A DNA stretch of 24,531 bases from positions 1-24,531 of IMG/VR virus record IMGVR_UViG_3300032282_003034; one strand, written 5' to 3'. The notes beneath the pieces are model-generated. The model saw nothing but the letters and a program-made list of their open reading frames with translations. It made no database searches and was not told the origin of the DNA. Source of the stretch: a virus. This document shows positions 3,962 to 16,408 of this stretch, piece by piece; positions within the stretch are counted from its first letter, which is position 1, and each line of letters begins with the position of its first letter. Position numbers and translations under genes: made by a program.

Positions 3962-4315
3962 ATGAAGACTTTCACAAAGATGGCTGCCCAGGGTGACTTC
4001 CTTATCATGCGTGTGGATGCTATCCCCGCTAATGTTGAGGTGCTTCCTGCTAATAACAAGAACCACATTGTGGTTGCTCACTCGGAGACTGGTCATGACC
4101 ATGTGATGGTTGCTGACCGTGTTACCGCTTATAAGCCTGCAGGCGTTAAGGATGTTGATCTCTACGAGATGTTCCTCTCAGTTGAGGCTCCTACGGAAAT
4201 CAACCATCTTCGTAGTCATGATACTCATGAGACTCTGCTGGTTCCTCCTGGTAACTATCGTGTTCGTCGCCAGCGTGAATATGTGGCTGAGGGTTTCCGT
4301 CGAGCTCAAGACTAA
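3962..4315 (+). CDS. conserved 'AQGD' protein of unknown function, 117 aa
   Basis: The frame is open from 3893 but that overlaps DUF932; ATG 3962 has AAGGA (3948-3952) and gives the family-like start MKTFTKMAAQGDFLIMRVDA. Further features are VVAHSETGHDHVM (about residues 39-51), an HDTHETLLVPPGNYRVRRQREY stretch that starts near residue 86, and a short C-terminal tail. This order (AQGD.L..RVD, AHGE.TGH.H, VRQREY) matches a family of ~110-130-residue bacterial and phage proteins I recall without a known function. The clustered His residues could bind a metal. It probably shares the DUF932 transcript (34-base gap). Confidence 0.65.
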   Translation: MKTFTKMAAQGDFLIMRVDAIPANVEVLPANNKNHIVVAHSETGHDHVMVADRVTAYKPAGVKDVDLYEMFLSVEAPTEINHLRSHDTHETLLVPPGNYRVRRQREYVAEGFRRAQD

Positions 4316-6935: not shown

Positions 6936-6964
6936 TTGATAGTATGATTAAATAGGTATATACT
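6936..6964 (+). promoter_or_regulatory. sigma70-type promoter of the tRNA-like gene
   Basis: TTGATA (6936-6941), 17-base spacer, TATACT (6959-6964). Predicted start near 6971, five bases before the tRNA acceptor stem. It may also serve the protein operon from 7128, since no terminator is seen between. Confidence 0.65.
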
Positions 6965-6975
6965 ATACATATAAT

Positions 6976-7057
6976 GACCCTGTATCAGTCCCGCCTTCTA
7001 AGCGGTCGTTAAAGCTGTAATTGGAGTATGGGAGTTCGAACCTCTCCAGGGTCGCCA
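6976..7057 (+). tRNA. tRNA-Arg(UCU)-like RNA without a D arm
   Basis: A perfect 7-base acceptor stem GACCCTG (6976-6982) pairs with CAGGGTC (7047-7053), followed by discriminator G7054 and encoded CCA (7055-7057). The T arm is GGGAG (7030-7034), loop TTCGAAC, CTCTC (7042-7046). The anticodon arm is CCGC (6991-6994), loop CTTCTAA with anticodon TCT (6997-6999), GCGG (7002-7005), decoding AGA (and AGG by wobble). Only eight bases separate acceptor and anticodon stems, so there is no D arm, while about 24 bases of unpaired-looking sequence lie between anticodon and T arms. A standard tRNA-Arg(UCU) appears to have lost its D arm and gained an insert. Its own promoter lies just upstream. It may be functional, processed differently, or a decayed relic. 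Confidence 0.55.
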
Positions 7058-7073
7058 ATTTTTTTAAATATAG

Positions 7074-7111
7074 GCTCTAGGTCAGTGGTTCGAATCCACT
7101 AGAGTGCGCCA
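7074..7111 (+). pseudogene. orphan 3' half of a tRNA
   Basis: T arm AGTGG (7084-7088), loop TTCGAAT, CCACT (7096-7100), then a 3' acceptor strand AGAGTGC (7101-7107), discriminator G and encoded CCA (7109-7111). Upstream GCTCT and AGGTC resemble the 3' anticodon-stem strand and the variable loop. The matching 5' acceptor (GCACTCT) and the D and anticodon arms are absent from the 60 bases upstream. It is a truncated tRNA or a T-arm minihelix. Confidence 0.6.
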
Positions 7112-9006: not shown

Positions 9007-9924
9007 ATGGATTTTTCCGCACTAAAAAAGAATTCTGGTAAGTCTTCTCTAGAAAAACTTACACAAGAGCTATCCAAGCTCAATAATACAGAATCTAAGG
9101 GTGATGCCCGTATGTGGTATCCTCAGACAGATAAGGCTGGTAATGGTTATGCTGTTATTCGGTTCCTTCCCCCACCACCAAATGAAGATGTACCATTTGT
9201 TCGAGTCTTTGAACATGGTTTCAAGGGACCTACAGGTCTATGGTATATTGAGAATTCACTTACAACAATCGGTCAAACTGATCCAGTTGGTGAACTTAAT
9301 TCCAAACTATGGAATTCTACTACCGATGATGAATCTCCTGCTCGCAAACAAGCTCGTGCTCAGAAGCGTAAGCTAACATTTATCTCTAATATCTATGTTA
9401 TTCAGGATCAAAATAATCCTGAGAACAACGGTAAGGTATTCCTATTCAAGTTTGGTAAGAAGATCTTTGATAAGCTAAATGAGGCTATGAATCCTCAATT
9501 TGCTGATGAAGATGCTCTAAACCCATTTGACTTCTGGGCTGGTGCTAACTTCAAGCTTAAGATTCGTAATGTTGAAGGTTATCGTAACTACGATAAATCT
9601 GAATTTGCAACTTCTGGTCCTCTATTTGATGATGATTCAGAACTAGAGTCTGTTTGGAAACAACAACATTCACTCAAGGCTTTCCTTGATTCTTCTAACT
9701 TTAAGAGTTATGAAGAACTATCTAAGCGACTAGCTGCTGTTCTTGGTCTTGATAAGAGTCCTGCTTCTTCTCGTGTTCAAGCTGCTGCACGTCAGAATGA
9801 TCCTACAGAGGATCAACTACCTTGGGCAGAACCAAAAGCTACAAAGACTGCTGAAACTAAATCTACAACATCGGATGACGATGATGAGGATATTGAGTTT
9901 TTTAAGAAACTAGCAAAAGACTAA
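9007..9924 (+). CDS. 32: gp32 single-stranded DNA-binding protein
   Basis: 305 residues (T4: 301). The N-terminal ~20 residues are the basic cooperativity domain; the core has NGYAVIRFLPPP (residues ~39-50), FEHGFKGPTGLWYIE (~68-82), a basic QARAQKRKLTF (~116-126), NNGKVFLFKFGKKIFDKLN (~138-156) and FDFWAGANFKLKIRNVEGYRNYD, all aligning with T4 gp32. The C-terminus is an acidic tail (DDDDEDIEFFKK) for recruiting partner proteins. It coats replication-fork DNA and works with gp59. The T4 zinc site (His-Cys-Cys-Cys) is gone: the His is kept but the protein has no cysteine at all. Start supported by AAGGA eight bases upstream. A bidirectional terminator follows. Confidence 0.95.
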   Translation: MDFSALKKNSGKSSLEKLTQELSKLNNTESKGDARMWYPQTDKAGNGYAVIRFLPPPPNEDVPFVRVFEHGFKGPTGLWYIENSLTTIGQTDPVGELNSKLWNSTTDDESPARKQARAQKRKLTFISNIYVIQDQNNPENNGKVFLFKFGKKIFDKLNEAMNPQFADEDALNPFDFWAGANFKLKIRNVEGYRNYDKSEFATSGPLFDDDSELESVWKQQHSLKAFLDSSNFKSYEELSKRLAAVLGLDKSPASSRVQAAARQNDPTEDQLPWAEPKATKTAETKSTTSDDDDEDIEFFKKLAKD

Positions 9925-9930
9925 TAAACT

Positions 9931-9960
9931 AAAAAGGGAACCATTTGGTTCCCTTTTTTT
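9931..9960. terminator. bidirectional intrinsic terminator
   Basis: AAAAAGGGAACC (9931-9942) pairs perfectly with GGTTCCCTTTTT (9947-9958) around ATTT. Rightward it ends in seven Ts (9954-9960); leftward its A run (9931-9935) becomes Us. It separates gp32 from the convergent late operon, whose last stop codon overlaps it. Confidence 0.9.
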
Positions 9961-12900
9961 ATGCTGCCATATCAAATAGTAATGCATATCGTTGAGCAGC
10001 ATCTGGTGGTTCAACATTACCTGGATTACCCATACTAATAGGATAAGAAGTATCTCCAACACCAGGAGATGAAGTCCCAGAGCTTGGTACATCAGGTGTT
10101 GGTGCAGATGGTGTCATAGGAGTTCGTTTAGCCACTTCATTATCAACTGATGCTGTTGCTACAGTAGGTCCAGAGCTTGGTGCTGATGGTGTCATTGATG
10201 CTGGTTGATCTCCACCACCAGGAGTCATTTCACCACCACCTGATGTAGTACTTGCAACCGGTGTTGCTGTTTCACCACCACCATCTGTTGATTCACCGCC
10301 TGATGCAGTTGCTGTCATTGGTGTTGCAGATACTTGAGATGCTTGTTGTGCACCATCGGTACTTGTATCGGGCGGTGCAGATCGGCCACCTATTCTTTCT
10401 ACGTGAACAGGATCATTAGGAAATGGTCTATGTAGACCATATTTCCTTAATAATCCCATTGAATCCATTTCCTCTAAAGCATTTCTAGTAACATCTAGTG
10501 CCCTTGCAGAAGAAGATGATCCCCCATGTGATGATTTTGTTCTACCACCGGGTACATTAAATGTTTGACCTTTATAATTTATAGTTGTATCTTTGTCTGG
10601 CTTTGCTGGCATATAAATGCCAGGTTCTTTAAATATTCTTCCTCTAACCCAAAGTTCGGCTTGTTTTTCATCACTACGAAAACCTGAATTAATTTTTACA
10701 GGTTTACCATATTCTTTAGCCGCAGCATAAAAACCACCTAATAAATCTTTATCTACTTTTGAAATATCTACACCAGAATCAATTGTTACATTTTCTGGTT
10801 TTTCAGATGTACCACCTTGAGATTGTGATTGATCTTGCCCCTGTTGTGTAGAAGTATCAGAGCCAGAACCAAATGAAGGCATTGTTGGTGGTCTCATACC
10901 ACCACTAACGTTAGCAAATGAAACTGGTGATGCTAATCCGCCAGAAGAACTCATACTACCACCAGCTAGATTTGGTGTTACTGCCGCACCTTGACCAGAT
11001 ACATTCATAATTGTATTCATAAAATCTGATAATTCTTCCTTGATAGCATCCAAGAAAGGTGCTTCCATCTTATCAGATTTAAAAACAATATCTCTAGCAG
11101 TAATGGTTAAACTGTCTGATGTATCCCCAGAAGATCGTCTTCTTGTTCTTTTAGGTCTAGCCATTGGTCTGGAAGTTGGTTCTGACCCTGCTTCTTGCCA
11201 ACCAGTATCGGTAGATTCTGCTTCTTGCCAACCAGTATCTGTTGTATCATCCATATAAGTTTGTGATACAGGACTTAATAAATCTTTATCTACTGGTTCA
11301 GCATCACTTACAGGTGTTTCCGACTGTTGTGGTGTTACAACTGGATTAGAGTTTGCAACCGAAGGAGAACTTAATAATTCTTCATCTATTATTTGATTTC
11401 TTAATTCTGCTTTTTCCGCAGGTAATAATTTACGACTTAATGCTTCTTCTTCTTCTTTTAGCTTTTGTTGATAGATTTCATCAACTTTTTTAGTAAATTC
11501 AGGAGAAAATTGATCAACTCTAGGTTTATTAGATTTTCTTTCAAATGCACCCGATATAGATTTACTTACTAATTCATCTCTTTTTTGCACTTCTGCATCT
11601 GGTGTTGCAGGAGCAACTGCTTGTTTTGGTGGAATATATATAGATTCTTTACTAGCTCTTCTTTCTGCATTAGCTATAGCTTCAGATTGTGCAGAACCAC
11701 CAGAACCTGGATTTAATAAAGCTAATTCTTCAGTTTTATATTTTTGTAGTAATTGTCCGTATAGTTGTTCTTTATTATCAGTTATAATATTAGCACTAGC
11801 AGGTGTTGCTTGTGGTGTTGCTGATACTGATGTTGTATTTACCTGAGGCACTGGAGTTACATTAGCACTAGCAGGTATTTGTGGTGTTGGTACAATATTA
11901 GCACTAGCAGGTGTTGCTTGTGGTGTTGCTGATACTGATGTTGTATTTACCTGAGGCACTGGAGTTACATTAGTACTAGCAGGTATTTGTGGTGTTGGTA
12001 CAATATTAGCACTAGCAGGTGTTGCTTGTGGTGTTTCTGTAATTGAAGGTATTGGTGTAATACCAGCATTCTTTCCAGTTGTATCAACAATTGCAAAATC
12101 TTTAGGGGGTTCTTTTTCTAATTCTTTTTCTAAATCGCTATATTGTTTATTAAATTCTTTTAATTTAGTTTCATCAGTTTGATTTCTTTTACTAAAAACT
12201 TCTTCTGCTTGTTTTTGAATATCATTTGTAGAAACACCACGAGCATTGTTTAAAATACGACGAACATTAGAATATTCATCTCTTGCAGATGAATATTCTT
12301 CAATTATATTTTTTTGTAAAATTTTTCTTTTTTGATCTATTGTTTCATAATATTTTAAATCTGATTCTAATTTAGCAAGTATACCCAATGTTTGTGTATC
12401 AGCTGGTCTTCTTTTTTCAAAAGAAATTTGTTTTTCTGTTGTAATTTTTTTAGATGCAATTTTATCTGAAAGTTTATCATTTTCATCAAGTTTTATTAAT
12501 AAATCATTATATTCAGATAATGTCTTTTTAATCTTTTCCTCAATAGTATTTGAATCAGATGGCGTTATTATTTGGCTTGCTGTTTGCTGTGATGCTGGTT
12601 GTGATATTATTGATGATACTGATGGTCTTGCAGGTGATGGAGTAGATACAGATGCTGTTTGATTTTGTTGTAAAAATTGAATAACATTCATAGCGGTGCT
12701 AGAAGCACTTACAAAACTACTATAATCTTGTTGAGGTATTACATTTGAAGATACTGGTGTAATATTATTAGCAGGTGTAACAGGTACCTGAGGCACTGGT
12801 GTTACATTAGCACTAGCAGGTATTGCATCTGGTGTTGCAGGTACATTAGCACTAGCAGGTATTGCATCTGGTGTTGCTGATACTGATGTTGTATTTACCT

Positions 12901-15118
12901 GAGGCACTGGTGTTACATTAGCACTAGCAGGTATTGCATCTGGTGTTGAAGTGATACTAGCAGGTGTTGCTTGTGGTGTTGCTGGTGCTTGAGGTGGTGT
13001 GACAGGATTGGCTAATAACTTTTCAAGATCATTCATAGAATCTTGTTGTTCTGACCCACGTCGTTCTGATACTGCTACTGGTGCTGCTGCTGGTGCTGGT
13101 GCTGGTGTTGAAGTGATACTAGCAGGTGTTGCTTGTGGTGTTGCTGATACTGATGTTGTATTTACCTGAGGCACTGGAGTTACATTAGCACTAGCAGGTG
13201 TTGCATCTGGAGTTACATTAGCACTAGCAGGTGTTACAGGTACATTAGCACTAGCAGGTATTGCATCTGGTGTTACAGGTACATTAGCACTAGCAGGTGT
13301 TACAGGTACATTAGCACTAGCAGGTATTGCATCTGGTGTTGCAGGCACATTAGCACTAGCAGGTATTGCATCTGGTGTTGCAGGTACAATATTAGCACTA
13401 GCAGGTGTTACATGTACATTAGCACTAGCAGGTATTGCATCTGGTGTTACAGGTACATTAGCACTAGCAGGTGTTACATGTACATTAGCACTAGCAGGTA
13501 CTTGTGGTGTTGGTACAATATTAGCACTAGCAGGTGTTACAGGTACATTAGCACTAGCAGGTGTTACATGTACATTAGCACTAGCAGGTGTTGCTTGTGG
13601 TACTGGAGTTACATTAGCACTAGCAGGTGTTGCTTGTGGTACTGGAGTTACATTAGCACTAGCAGGTGTTGCATCTGGAGTTACATTAGCACTAGCAGGT
13701 GTTGCAGGTACTTGACTTGCATCTGGTGTTGAAGTTTGTCCTCTTCTTTCACGTGCTTTTTTAAATGCTTCTTCATTTTCTCTTATTAAATCATTTAATA
13801 TATTTTTAGCGCCACGTGCTTGTGTTCTATTTGTTAAATCAATTTGATCTTTATCAGAAATAATTTCAAGAATTTCTATAATTTTTGGATCTAATGATTG
13901 TCTAAAATTATTATCTTTTAGTAATTTTTGTATATCTTCCTGATCTTTTACAGTCATATCTCTTGGATTTGGCGGTCTTGGAGGACTTTCACCCATAAGT
14001 GCCGCAGCTATTGTTGCACCCATCCATGAACCTACTTCACTACCAGCAAATGCACCAGCAACACCGCCTATAATACCGAAAACAAGTGCGCCAACGCCTG
14101 CAATTGGTGCCCCAAGTGCAGCGCCTACAGTACCTAATGCTGCTGCTCCTGCTGCTGATCCAAAGAAAGATCCAAAAGCAGCACCATATCTTTGTTTATA
14201 TGTATTTGAATCTATTTCATTTATAGAATATTCATATTCAATTTGATCAAGTTCTGATATTAATTGCAAACCTTCAATTGCAGTAAATACAACACCCAAT
14301 CCAGCAGCTGCAAATCTAGATGATGTTAAACCACGACTTCTTGCAGGTCTATTAGTTGCTCTAGGTGTCTCTGGTGTTGCTGCAGGTCTAGGTGTTTGTC
14401 TTACTTCTGGAACACTGCCTCTTCTTTGTGGTCTATTATTACTGCGTCTTCTTTCTAAATCAATATCTGGAGAATTATCAGTATTATCTTCTTGTTGTGC
14501 TTGATTTTCCAAATGATCATTAATATTTTTTAATAATTCATTATGTCTTTTTATATTTTGTTCTATATCTGATAATAAACTTGCTGATTTCTCAAGAGCT
14601 TTGCTTGTTTCCTCATTTATTGTTTTTAATTGAGAAAATTTCAAACCGCTTTGTTGGGTAGATATATAATTGTCTATTTTTTTTATTGAATCAATTACAA
14701 ATTTTGGTATGTCTTTTTCTAAAATGGAACTTGCTGAAATAGATGAAGCAGATATGGGTTTTGATTTTTGTTCTGATATTTCTTGTGGTTCTTGTTTAGT
14801 TATACTTGAAATTTGAATAGGTGATGCTGTAACGCTAGCATCATTCTGTGTAATATTATTTTTTATAGAACCAAGAAGTTTACTTGTTTCAGATTGGCTA
14901 TTCAAAATATTAGTCATATTAATATTATTATTTTGAATCGATCTGTATTCAGTTGATTTTATATTAGCATATTCTGATAAAAATCTTTTTTCTTTTTGAT
15001 CTCTACCACTCATAGTATCAAGAAGTTTATTCAAAATTGGTGCAGCAAAAGATAAATCTGATCTTGCTGCATTTTTTGTTGATGCTTTATCTTCTTTTTT
15101 TACTATCGGAAGAACCAT
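9959..15118 (-). CDS. 1719-aa mosaic protein: glycine zipper, TPASANV repeats, M15-type peptidase
   Basis: Start ATG at 15118-15116, 3 bases after the muramidase stop. Order: (1) residues 1-215 charged, coiled-coil-like; (2) ~266-374 hydrophobic Gly/Ala-rich with GxxxG zippers (GAAFGSFFGSAAGAAALG, GAFAGSEVGSWMG), able to enter a membrane; (3) ~471-651 TPASANV repeats, with further blocks at ~719-779 and ~1029-1109; (4) ~856-1006 coiled coil; (5) a tandem TDTGWQEA pair near 1295; (6) ~1443-1579 an M15/VanY-type zinc peptidase: INSGFRS, SSHGG with His1531, ALDV with Asp1542, and DPVHVE with His1572; (7) a Gly/Ser/Thr/Pro-rich tail ending RYALLFDMAA. It is the last gene of the late operon, after holin and muramidase. 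A virion-borne wall-penetrating or tail-needle-like protein is likely; a tape-measure or lysis role is possible. The H-to-D spacing is 11, longer than the usual 7, so activity is uncertain. Confidence 0.8.
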   Translation of the reverse strand: MVLPIVKKEDKASTKNAARSDLSFAAPILNKLLDTMSGRDQKEKRFLSEYANIKSTEYRSIQNNNINMTNILNSQSETSKLLGSIKNNITQNDASVTASPIQISSITKQEPQEISEQKSKPISASSISASSILEKDIPKFVIDSIKKIDNYISTQQSGLKFSQLKTINEETSKALEKSASLLSDIEQNIKRHNELLKNINDHLENQAQQEDNTDNSPDIDLERRRSNNRPQRRGSVPEVRQTPRPAATPETPRATNRPARSRGLTSSRFAAAGLGVVFTAIEGLQLISELDQIEYEYSINEIDSNTYKQRYGAAFGSFFGSAAGAAALGTVGAALGAPIAGVGALVFGIIGGVAGAFAGSEVGSWMGATIAAALMGESPPRPPNPRDMTVKDQEDIQKLLKDNNFRQSLDPKIIEILEIISDKDQIDLTNRTQARGAKNILNDLIRENEEAFKKARERRGQTSTPDASQVPATPASANVTPDATPASANVTPVPQATPASANVTPVPQATPASANVHVTPASANVPVTPASANIVPTPQVPASANVHVTPASANVPVTPDAIPASANVHVTPASANIVPATPDAIPASANVPATPDAIPASANVPVTPASANVPVTPDAIPASANVPVTPASANVTPDATPASANVTPVPQVNTTSVSATPQATPASITSTPAPAPAAAPVAVSERRGSEQQDSMNDLEKLLANPVTPPQAPATPQATPASITSTPDAIPASANVTPVPQVNTTSVSATPDAIPASANVPATPDAIPASANVTPVPQVPVTPANNITPVSSNVIPQQDYSSFVSASSTAMNVIQFLQQNQTASVSTPSPARPSVSSIISQPASQQTASQIITPSDSNTIEEKIKKTLSEYNDLLIKLDENDKLSDKIASKKITTEKQISFEKRRPADTQTLGILAKLESDLKYYETIDQKRKILQKNIIEEYSSARDEYSNVRRILNNARGVSTNDIQKQAEEVFSKRNQTDETKLKEFNKQYSDLEKELEKEPPKDFAIVDTTGKNAGITPIPSITETPQATPASANIVPTPQIPASTNVTPVPQVNTTSVSATPQATPASANIVPTPQIPASANVTPVPQVNTTSVSATPQATPASANIITDNKEQLYGQLLQKYKTEELALLNPGSGGSAQSEAIANAERRASKESIYIPPKQAVAPATPDAEVQKRDELVSKSISGAFERKSNKPRVDQFSPEFTKKVDEIYQQKLKEEEEALSRKLLPAEKAELRNQIIDEELLSSPSVANSNPVVTPQQSETPVSDAEPVDKDLLSPVSQTYMDDTTDTGWQEAESTDTGWQEAGSEPTSRPMARPKRTRRRSSGDTSDSLTITARDIVFKSDKMEAPFLDAIKEELSDFMNTIMNVSGQGAAVTPNLAGGSMSSSGGLASPVSFANVSGGMRPPTMPSFGSGSDTSTQQGQDQSQSQGGTSEKPENVTIDSGVDISKVDKDLLGGFYAAAKEYGKPVKINSGFRSDEKQAELWVRGRIFKEPGIYMPAKPDKDTTINYKGQTFNVPGGRTKSSHGGSSSSARALDVTRNALEEMDSMGLLRKYGLHRPFPNDPVHVERIGGRSAPPDTSTDGAQQASQVSATPMTATASGGESTDGGGETATPVASTTSGGGEMTPGGGDQPASMTPSAPSSGPTVATASVDNEVAKRTPMTPSAPTPDVPSSGTSSPGVGDTSYPISMGNPGNVEPPDAAQRYALLFDMAA
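13165..13710 (-). repeat. tandem-like TPASANV coding repeats (main block)
   Basis: About 16 copies of an 18-base unit (ACATTAGCACTAGCAGGT on the plus strand), spaced by 3 to 24 bases, encode P-A-S-A-N-V/I. Spacer peptides are shuffled from few types (PVTP, PDAI, TPVPQ, HVTP, IVPTPQ). Smaller blocks lie at about 12780-12960 and 11785-12030. The whole gene has roughly two dozen ASAN copies. Near-identity of DNA copies suggests recent expansion by unequal recombination or slippage. Confidence 0.9.
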
Positions 15119-15121
15119 TGT

Positions 15122-16408
15122 TTATGCCTGTAAATTTTGAAGTCTGATATTAATAGGTACTTCACCAACTTGTGGTGCTGAAGATGGAGCAGTTGGCTGT
15201 TGTATTGGTCCTGGTGTTGGTCCTGCCAATGAACTAATTTGTTGTCCAACACCACGCATTTGTGCTTGATCTGCTGCTTCAGTTGTTGCACCAGCTTGTG
15301 ATAGTTGTGGACCTGTGCCAGGAGTACCAGGAACTTGTTGTGCTTGTTGAGATGTATCTCCACCGCCACCACGAATCATTCCTACAATTGTAGGACCACG
15401 ATTACCTACTTGTTTAAACCATGCACTATTTTGCATTTCATTCGCAAATGTTTGCACGTCACCTTTAGCTAAAGCAGCAGATGCGGCAGGAAATTTTCTA
15501 TACCAAGCAGGACCCATATTAAAAGTTAAATCAATAACCGCAGCTTGACCACTAGAATTTAATTTTTCAAAACCTGGTATACGCTGTGCCGCTGCTTTAT
15601 GTTCTGCAAAGTCTTTAGCAAATAATTGATCTATTTCTTGTGGCGAGAATTTTTTATTCCATTCTGGTGGTAATGTTGGTCCTATCATATGACCAACACC
15701 TACAGTCCATAACCCAACAGAATCTTTATATGGTGTATATCTAACATCTTCGTGTTTCTTAATCATCGCCATAACAGATGCATCGTCACCAGACGGCATT
15801 TGTACTTCACCACCACCCAAACCCGTATTTTGTTGAGGATTCATTTGACCACCAGAAGTCATTCCTGATGCTGCTACTGGTGTAGCGCTTGGCATTTGTG
15901 GTGCTGTTGATCTGACAATATATCCACCGCCGGGTTGACTAATGCCGCCGGTTGCCTGACCTGAAAAATTATCTTGTTGTCCGCCGCTGGCTGTTCTTCC
16001 TGATCCACCTGAAGATAATGTTTGAACTGCTGATTGTAAAGCACCAAAACCAGAAGGCATTGCTGGCATTTGAGGCGCTGATGTTGCAGCAGATGCGGCA
16101 TTTGAATCTGATGATTGAATAGCTGGACTTGAAATATTACTAGTTAAACCACCAGCAGATTGTATATTAGATCTTTTAATATTTCCAAGTAAATCAGATA
16201 ATGTAAAATCTAGTTCATCTACATCAAAAACTAAATTTTGACTTATTAATTCTATTTCTGAAAATACTTTCTTTGATAGAAAAGCAGTCATCATATTTGA
16301 TTCTGCAATTCTTTCTGCATCTTTATCAACAATTGAATTGGCGACTTGAGAAGCCATATACTCCGCTAGACTTAACTTATCAATGTCGCCAACTTGTCCT
16401 TCTAACAT
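15122..16408 (-). CDS. GH24 muramidase with long low-complexity flanks
   Basis: 428 residues. Residues 1-85 are charged and helical; 85-205 are Gly/Ser/Pro/Gln-rich; 211-347 form a T4-lysozyme-type (GH24) domain with catalytic triad Glu220, Asp229, Thr235 in KHEDVRYTPYKDSVGLWTVG, spacing 9 and 6 as in T4 lysozyme, and later INMGP-type LTFNMGP. The C-terminus is Pro/Gln-rich and ends PINIRLQNLQA. The domain cuts the peptidoglycan glycan chain. No signal peptide. The gene overlaps the holin-like gene by one base and precedes the giant M15 protein. It could be the endolysin or, given the extra N-terminal region and setting among baseplate genes, a structural lysin for entry; T4 carries its tail lysozyme in gp5, which here has none. 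Confidence 0.85.
   Translation of the reverse strand: MLEGQVGDIDKLSLAEYMASQVANSIVDKDAERIAESNMMTAFLSKKVFSEIELISQNLVFDVDELDFTLSDLLGNIKRSNIQSAGGLTSNISSPAIQSSDSNAASAATSAPQMPAMPSGFGALQSAVQTLSSGGSGRTASGGQQDNFSGQATGGISQPGGGYIVRSTAPQMPSATPVAASGMTSGGQMNPQQNTGLGGGEVQMPSGDDASVMAMIKKHEDVRYTPYKDSVGLWTVGVGHMIGPTLPPEWNKKFSPQEIDQLFAKDFAEHKAAAQRIPGFEKLNSSGQAAVIDLTFNMGPAWYRKFPAASAALAKGDVQTFANEMQNSAWFKQVGNRGPTIVGMIRGGGGDTSQQAQQVPGTPGTGPQLSQAGATTEAADQAQMRGVGQQISSLAGPTPGPIQQPTAPSSAPQVGEVPINIRLQNLQA

Follow-up and report, generated by a model that had tools for sequence, protein, structure and literature searches.

A predicted tRNA-Arg(UCU) with exchanged core segments in a T4-like phage, and its relatives in other bacterial viruses

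A stretch of 24,531 nucleotides of viral DNA (IMG/VR record IMGVR_UViG_3300032282_003034, called the window here) comes from a T4-like myovirus (with gp32, Gp5 and baseplate proteins) and encodes, at 6976-7057 on the + strand, an 82-nt element that resembles a tRNA in some of its parts only. The question is what kind of RNA this is. The sequence-only reading took it for a tRNA-Arg(UCU) without a D arm. The canonical order of acceptor stem, D arm, anticodon arm, variable loop and T arm is not found in it. ARAGORN called no tRNA gene in the window, and the element scores 27.8 bits against the Rfam tRNA family RF00005, for which the gathering score is 29; from these two results we conclude that a standard cloverleaf is absent. 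ARAGORN does call some of its relatives, for example L038. Rfam families other than tRNA gave no match at the element and two chance matches elsewhere in the window.

Several parts of the element are those of an ordinary tRNA. The 5' strand of the acceptor stem (positions 1-7, GACCCTG, 6976-6982) pairs at 7 of 7 positions with CAGGGTC at 7047-7053, and this 3' strand is followed by G73 (7054) and an encoded CCA (7055-7057), the whole 3' part covering 7047-7057. The T arm at 7030-7046 reads GGGAG TTCGAAC CTCTC. The anticodon arm occupies 6990-7006, with a stem (6990-6994 with 7002-7006) of 4 bp and one C.U mismatch, and a loop CTTCTAA (6995-7001) with the anticodon UCU at 6997-6999. The perfect acceptor stem, the good T arm, the Arg(UCU) loop and the encoded CCA that had been noticed earlier can thus all be read directly in the sequence. 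The element has the 7-bp acceptor stem, the T arm, the 7-nt anticodon loop with U33 and the CCA end of a functional tRNA.

The unusual parts lie in the two intervals around the anticodon arm, 7 bases from the acceptor stem to the anticodon stem and 23 bases from the anticodon stem to the T arm. The first interval consists of a UAU connector (U8, A9 and a U; 6983-6985), which is present in 129 of 130 parsed members of the family described below, the bases CAG at 6986-6988, and U6989. The partner of CAG is CTG at 7015-7017, beyond the anticodon arm. This helix, H2, is the relocated D-stem, and U6989 is its fourth position, which is non-canonical in the window's element. Within the second interval, a bulge of the CGTTAA type (7007-7014) stands in place of positions 44-47; its form is CRTYAANN in subtype A, to which the element belongs, and WGAAA in subtype B. 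After the 3' strand of H2 follows the relocated D-loop with U48 (7018-7029), in the order U (7018), A14 (7019), A15, U16, U17, G18 (7023), G19 (7024), A20 (7025), G, U, A21 (7028) and U48 (7029). What had been counted as about 24 extra bases therefore contains a full D-loop (7019-7028), including G18, G19 and A20. In canonical numbering the simplest description, judged from the sequence, is the order 1-9, 22-47, 10-21, 48-76, that is, an exchange of blocks 10-21 and 22-47. The acceptor stem and the T and anticodon arms show nothing unusual. The two strands of the D-stem stand on either side of the anticodon arm, and the D-loop, with the motif A14 R15 Y Y G18 G19 N20 .. A21, follows on the 3' side of that arm and runs directly up to Y48. 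The identity as Arg(UCU), the non-standard cloverleaf and a probable function proposed earlier are retained, while the D arm is present in a rewired form. A D-armless tRNA of the mitochondrial type is ruled out: the relocated D-stem covaries and the D-loop motif is complete, both sitting elsewhere in the same molecule.

The evidence for this architecture comes from comparison with other phages. The sequence, architecture, covariation, isotype-linked nucleotides and spread of the element are all shown directly. MAFFT aligned 31 distinct type A members without gaps, and this alignment has four covarying helices, namely the acceptor stem, the T stem, the anticodon stem and H2. Paired cells make up 94.8% of the total compared with 63.6% in shuffles, two-sided changes occur at 19 of 21 pairs, and the covariation score is 0.80 compared with 0.20, collapsing once the partners are shifted by 1-3 columns. 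In this alignment, A1, which was not fitted to the model (alignment A3 was), compensatory changes are found at all 7 acceptor pairs and 100% of the T-stem cells are paired. When 99 sequences from the two subtypes are taken together, pairing is kept in 295 of 297 cells at the three core positions of H2; the first and second pairs each occur as all four Watson-Crick types and the third as three. A scan of mutual information that was open to any pair of columns ranked an H2 pair first; the top of the list is nearly only helix pairs, with N35-N20 among them, followed by the fourth H2 pair and R15-Y48. Among the 130 parsed members, for which parsing demanded an exact H2, A14 is found in 130 and A21 in 129, and the Levitt pair R15-Y48 is A-U in 111, G-C in 11 and another combination in 8 (Fisher 3e-12). 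Between H2 and the T stem, 12-13 nt follow the pattern U-A-R-Y-Y-G-G-N-..-A-Y, so that Y48 abuts T-stem position 49. The window's element has both features that define the family, H2 across the anticodon arm and the UA(R)..GGN..AY linker, and it scores 95.5 bits against model R1, which was built from the 31 distinct members with the window's element among them.

On the other hand, single-sequence folding alone does not favour the swapped fold. The minimum free energy (MFE) structure differs from it, and the proposed structure lies a median of 3.6 kcal/mol above the MFE in ViennaRNA, in which tertiary contacts and modifications are outside the model. H2 has a median base-pair probability of 0.016 in the same nearest-neighbour model, again with tertiary contacts and modifications left aside. 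The folding z of the window's sequence is -1.2 (ViennaRNA). RNAalifold, unaided, predicted the acceptor, T and anticodon helices from the 31 type A members and did not predict H2. In three dimensions, the helices and the D-loop would be placed as in a normal L-shaped tRNA, with three backbone connections of the core rewired. An L shape with the usual elbow contacts is plausible from the helix lengths, since H2 and the anticodon stem together form a hairpin about as long as a D-stem plus an anticodon stem.

Could the element be a decayed tRNA pseudogene? It was missed by the standard tRNA finders and a fragmentary tRNA remnant adjoins it, as decay would have it. However, the two syntenic phage contigs L025 and L045 carry the element with 82 of 82 nt identical, although the flanking DNA is only about 75-77% identical, and compensatory changes are found across phages of several bacterial phyla. 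Covariation refutes decay; there is neither relaxed constraint nor broken helices, and we give this explanation next to no probability. An intact ordinary tRNA at this place in related phages would have marked a relic; L025 and L045 have the identical 82-nt swapped element instead.

The remnant is the second element, at 7084-7111 on the + strand, with a T arm, an acceptor 3' strand and CCA. It had been described as a T-arm/acceptor fragment with no 5' half, which is correct, there being no adjacent 5' partner. In L025 and L045 the same slot after the swapped tRNA holds a complete tRNA gene (Ile-UAU by ARAGORN), for which reason the sequence of 7084-7111 is most likely the 3' remnant of another tRNA gene; the fragment belongs to a different tRNA than this Ile(UAU). 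The Ile(UAU) tRNA itself has 94 nt (4163-4256 on the - strand of L025 and 2516-2609 on the + strand of L045), a D arm, and a variable region of about 24 nt that is unusually long for Ile.

By sequence, the element is part of a large and almost unannotated phage RNA family, of which at least 130 distinct members were parsed, from phages whose hosts are proteobacteria, actinobacteria and Bacteroides. It is far beyond chance, because the identical 82-nt layout, the supposedly extra bases included, recurs in more than 100 phage sequences with compensatory changes. Among GenBank phages (blastn), the 62-nt core including these bases matches the E. coli phages at 87% identity and those of Salmonella and Vibrio at 83-85%; the matches of 83-87% are E. 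coli phages Bas93, Bas94, FH3, 1-6af and 1-6bf, Salmonella phage SSBI34 and Vibrio phage 1.170.O. Matches of about 75-83% were obtained in Justusliebigvirus (phi92), Mydovirus, the Klebsiella Roth phages and others. Most of the GenBank copies have no annotation, or carry the labels tRNA-OTHER or tRNA-Undet. In IMG/VR, a pattern scan that left the anticodon unconstrained returned 38 contigs, of which 33 are genuine; the five others (L027, L037, L039, L049 and L050) match in a coding repeat, not an RNA. The genuine members of this first scan all have an NCU anticodon, though the pattern left it free; members with ACG (Rhodococcus phage Trina) and UAU came from relaxed scans. The second subtype, type B, in which the bulge is WGAAA instead of CGTTAANN, is abundant among the matches listed. 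Carriers of the family include Streptomyces, Rhodococcus and Microbacterium phages and crAss-like phages of Bacteroides. Two kinds of match were left out of the count: those in Mycobacterium phages, which are confined to the T arm and acceptor part of genes already annotated as tRNA-Arg, and L263, read as Glu, whose 36.5 bits fall inside the range of canonical tRNAs. Additional subtypes probably exist outside model R2, to judge from the sequences found. Two more divergent relatives, L268 (G007:C1:54930-55040) and L257 (G014:C1:9430-9530), differ by a shorter bulge; their anticodons, ACG and CCG respectively, are apparently those of Arg.

Type A was not found in 84,980 bacterial and archaeal species genomes of GTDB in two pattern scans. 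Neither 5,426 E. coli genomes nor a plasmid collection contained a match to the window's element, and a host or plasmid origin is rejected on this ground; type B gave a single record in the plasmid collection, matching just the 3' third of the query.

Some other observations were made at these loci. In Streptomyces phage Yaboi (L107 805-883; NC_048730.1 86686-86764) a swapped tRNA with the loop CTTCTAA (UCU) is annotated as tRNA-Val(aac), probably as a result of the annotation forcing a cloverleaf. HNH endonuclease genes directly adjoin the swapped tRNA in several unrelated phages (L002, L005, L008, L108 and L109). In Vibrio phage 1.170.O (L006), just downstream of a member with anticodon CCU, there is another tRNA-like sequence at about 2585-2660, with GGAGAAG..CTTCTCC, a T loop TGCAAGT and an odd anticodon region, which ARAGORN does not call.

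If the RNA acts as an adaptor, its isotype should be reflected outside the anticodon. For the isotype tally we used parsed members with at least 54 bits under model R2, counting CAU as Ile. Only Arg or Ile-type anticodons are found: UCU 47, ACG 35, CCU 3, UCG 3 and CCG 1 for Arg, and GAU 21, UAU 16 and CAU 4 for Ile, the CAU anticodon being possibly lysidine-modified. Of the Arg members with the GG motif, 83 of 84 have A at N20, compared with 0 of 41 Ile members (Fisher 2.5e-32), and the link holds within type A alone (7e-10) and type B alone (5e-22). N73 is A in 41/41 Ile members and A or G in 78/89 Arg members. U33 and A37 are conserved in the 7-nt anticodon loop of the family, and CCA is encoded in 64 of 130 parsed members, about half being without it. 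A tree made without the anticodon, N20 and N73 columns has 8 isotype changes, from short sequences; on supported branches there are 3 independent isotype contrasts and N20 changed in 3/3, too few for a significant sign test. In E. coli, A20 is described as the main determinant for ArgRS, together with C35, U/C36 and A/G73; charging with Ile calls for the anticodon, A37 and A73, where the discriminator counts as a strong determinant and D20 as discrete (PMC9976931). The window's element has all of the Arg charging nucleotides, namely A20, C35, U36 and G73. The isotype-linked N20 and N73 together with the covarying helices argue, at the level of sequence, for charged and decoding tRNAs, and the N20 link would not be expected of a structural mimic that needs no charging. 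We consider it very probable that 6976-7057 is a functional phage tRNA-Arg(UCU) of segment-swapped architecture.

An alternative is a conserved tRNA mimic or decoy, which would not decode but would engage a tRNA-targeting nuclease, a defence protein or an aminoacyl-tRNA synthetase of the host. The missing type A copies in the GTDB genomes scanned by pattern point in this direction, as do the same-isotype canonical tRNAs that some carriers also have (L030). In addition, phage tRNAs have been reported to counter tRNA-cleaving defences (PMC10264068 and PMC11555353). Nevertheless, the conserved charging determinants, discriminator, CCA-type end, U33, A37 and Levitt pair are what an adaptor needs, N20 shifts with isotype as an adaptor requires, and a decoy for a single nuclease has no need for five Arg and three Ile-type anticodons. 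We regard a pure decoy as unlikely, and charging and decoy roles could coexist in the same RNA.

The surroundings of the gene also bear on its role. A sigma-70-like promoter site, TTGATA-17-TATACT, is found by consensus scan at 6936-6964 on the + strand (10/12), and a start there would lie about 5 nt before the RNA; the match is where a separate promoter had been proposed, but chance alone would produce about one site of this quality in this stretch. Visual inspection of L025 and phi92 shows TTGACA and TATAAT/TATAGT-like hexamers ahead of the element. AGA makes up 1 of 102 Arg codons in open reading frames (ORFs) before 7100 compared with 130 of 213 after it, in keeping with the earlier argument that a UCU tRNA would suit the codon usage downstream of the gene. 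A sharp change is likewise seen for ATA, with 4/103 Ile codons before 7100 and 141/384 after. Further downstream in the window, an inverted repeat with a T run lies between convergent genes at 9923-9960; over these 38 nt it is 97% identical to Providencia phage PSTRCR_127, in which the rest of the window is unmatched. An ORF of 1719 aa at 9959-15118 (- strand) contains many TPASANV-type repeats and adjoins an ORF with a phage-lysozyme domain (15122-16408).

We also considered a tRNA-like structure outside translation, acting as a processing signal, a primer or a 3'-end element of the neighbouring mRNA. Where the element of Bas93/FH3 and SSBI34 lies between genes, its acceptor stem continues outward to a length of about 16-18 bp, and in L002, L003 and L005 this is a perfect or near-perfect helix of 16-18 bp where the element is intergenic; the extension is a possible processing signal. 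Yet the window, L025 and phi92 have no outward extension, and in phi92 the element lies within an ordinary tRNA array, and such a role is very improbable.

When compared with known systems, the predicted tRNA-Arg(UCU) shares most with canonical tRNA-Arg and tRNA-Ile (RF00005): the acceptor stem, the T arm, the 7-nt anticodon loop with U33 and A37, the D-loop motif A14 R15 YY G18 G19 N20 A21 with Y48, the discriminator, CCA, and the isotype-specific N20 and N73. It differs in that its D-stem encloses the anticodon arm and its D-loop is 3' of that arm. The tRNA-like domain of tmRNA also has an acceptor and T arm with an unusual D region; the phage RNA, however, has no tag reading frame, a true anticodon arm and isotype-matched identity nucleotides within 82 nt. 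In permuted and split tRNA genes of algae and archaea, the 3' half comes before the 5' half and processing restores the cloverleaf. The segment order departs from that of a usual gene there as well, whereas here the acceptor strands are at both ends and the internal blocks stay exchanged; a permuted gene is rejected, since 6976-6982 and 7047-7053 flank the gene. The D-armless metazoan mitochondrial tRNA-Ser and mini HisT also have very few bases from the acceptor to the anticodon stem, but lack the D-loop/T-loop contact, while the phage RNA of 82 nt has a relocated D-stem and D-loop. The engineered E. coli mini HisT was modelled as Y-shaped, and all known bacterial tRNAs are stated to be canonical in fold (PMC11551756). 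A review of non-canonical natural tRNAs leaves phages unmentioned (PMC7609411). No description of the swapped fold was found in full-text searches limited to open PMC papers, and on sequence grounds bacterial viruses seem to carry a tRNA architecture absent from the open papers searched.

Processing, charging, decoding, the L shape and a possible advantage are what we infer from these results. The mature RNA probably arises by trimming and ends in CCA, as a tRNA does, the host ArgRS would charge it through A20, C35, U36 and G73, and the charged RNA would read AGA (possibly AGG), which is common in the downstream, mainly structural genes of this phage. The advantage may be an escape from host enzymes that attack or modify normal tRNAs. 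Possibly phages retain the swapped core as an escape from host enzymes that recognise the normal tRNA core, an idea that is attractive because phage tRNAs are known to counter tRNA-cutting defences. More broadly, it is likely that phages carry a natural class of tRNAs with a rearranged core (10-21 and 22-47 exchanged) that are charged and decode, a non-cloverleaf class outside organelles that is limited to Arg and Ile. If this is true, many tRNAs of phages have escaped the standard gene finders, and studies of which tRNAs phages carry and how these match codon usage will have to be revised. A stable tRNA with kept identity elements and an altered core topology would also offer a natural way of testing which features of a tRNA are recognised by synthetases, EF-Tu, modification enzymes and tRNA-cutting defences, and carriers that are tractable in the laboratory (E. 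coli phages phi92, Bas93 and Bas94) make the rewiring of the tRNA fold directly testable. If the RNAs are charged and decode, the order of the segments of a tRNA is not fixed in nature.
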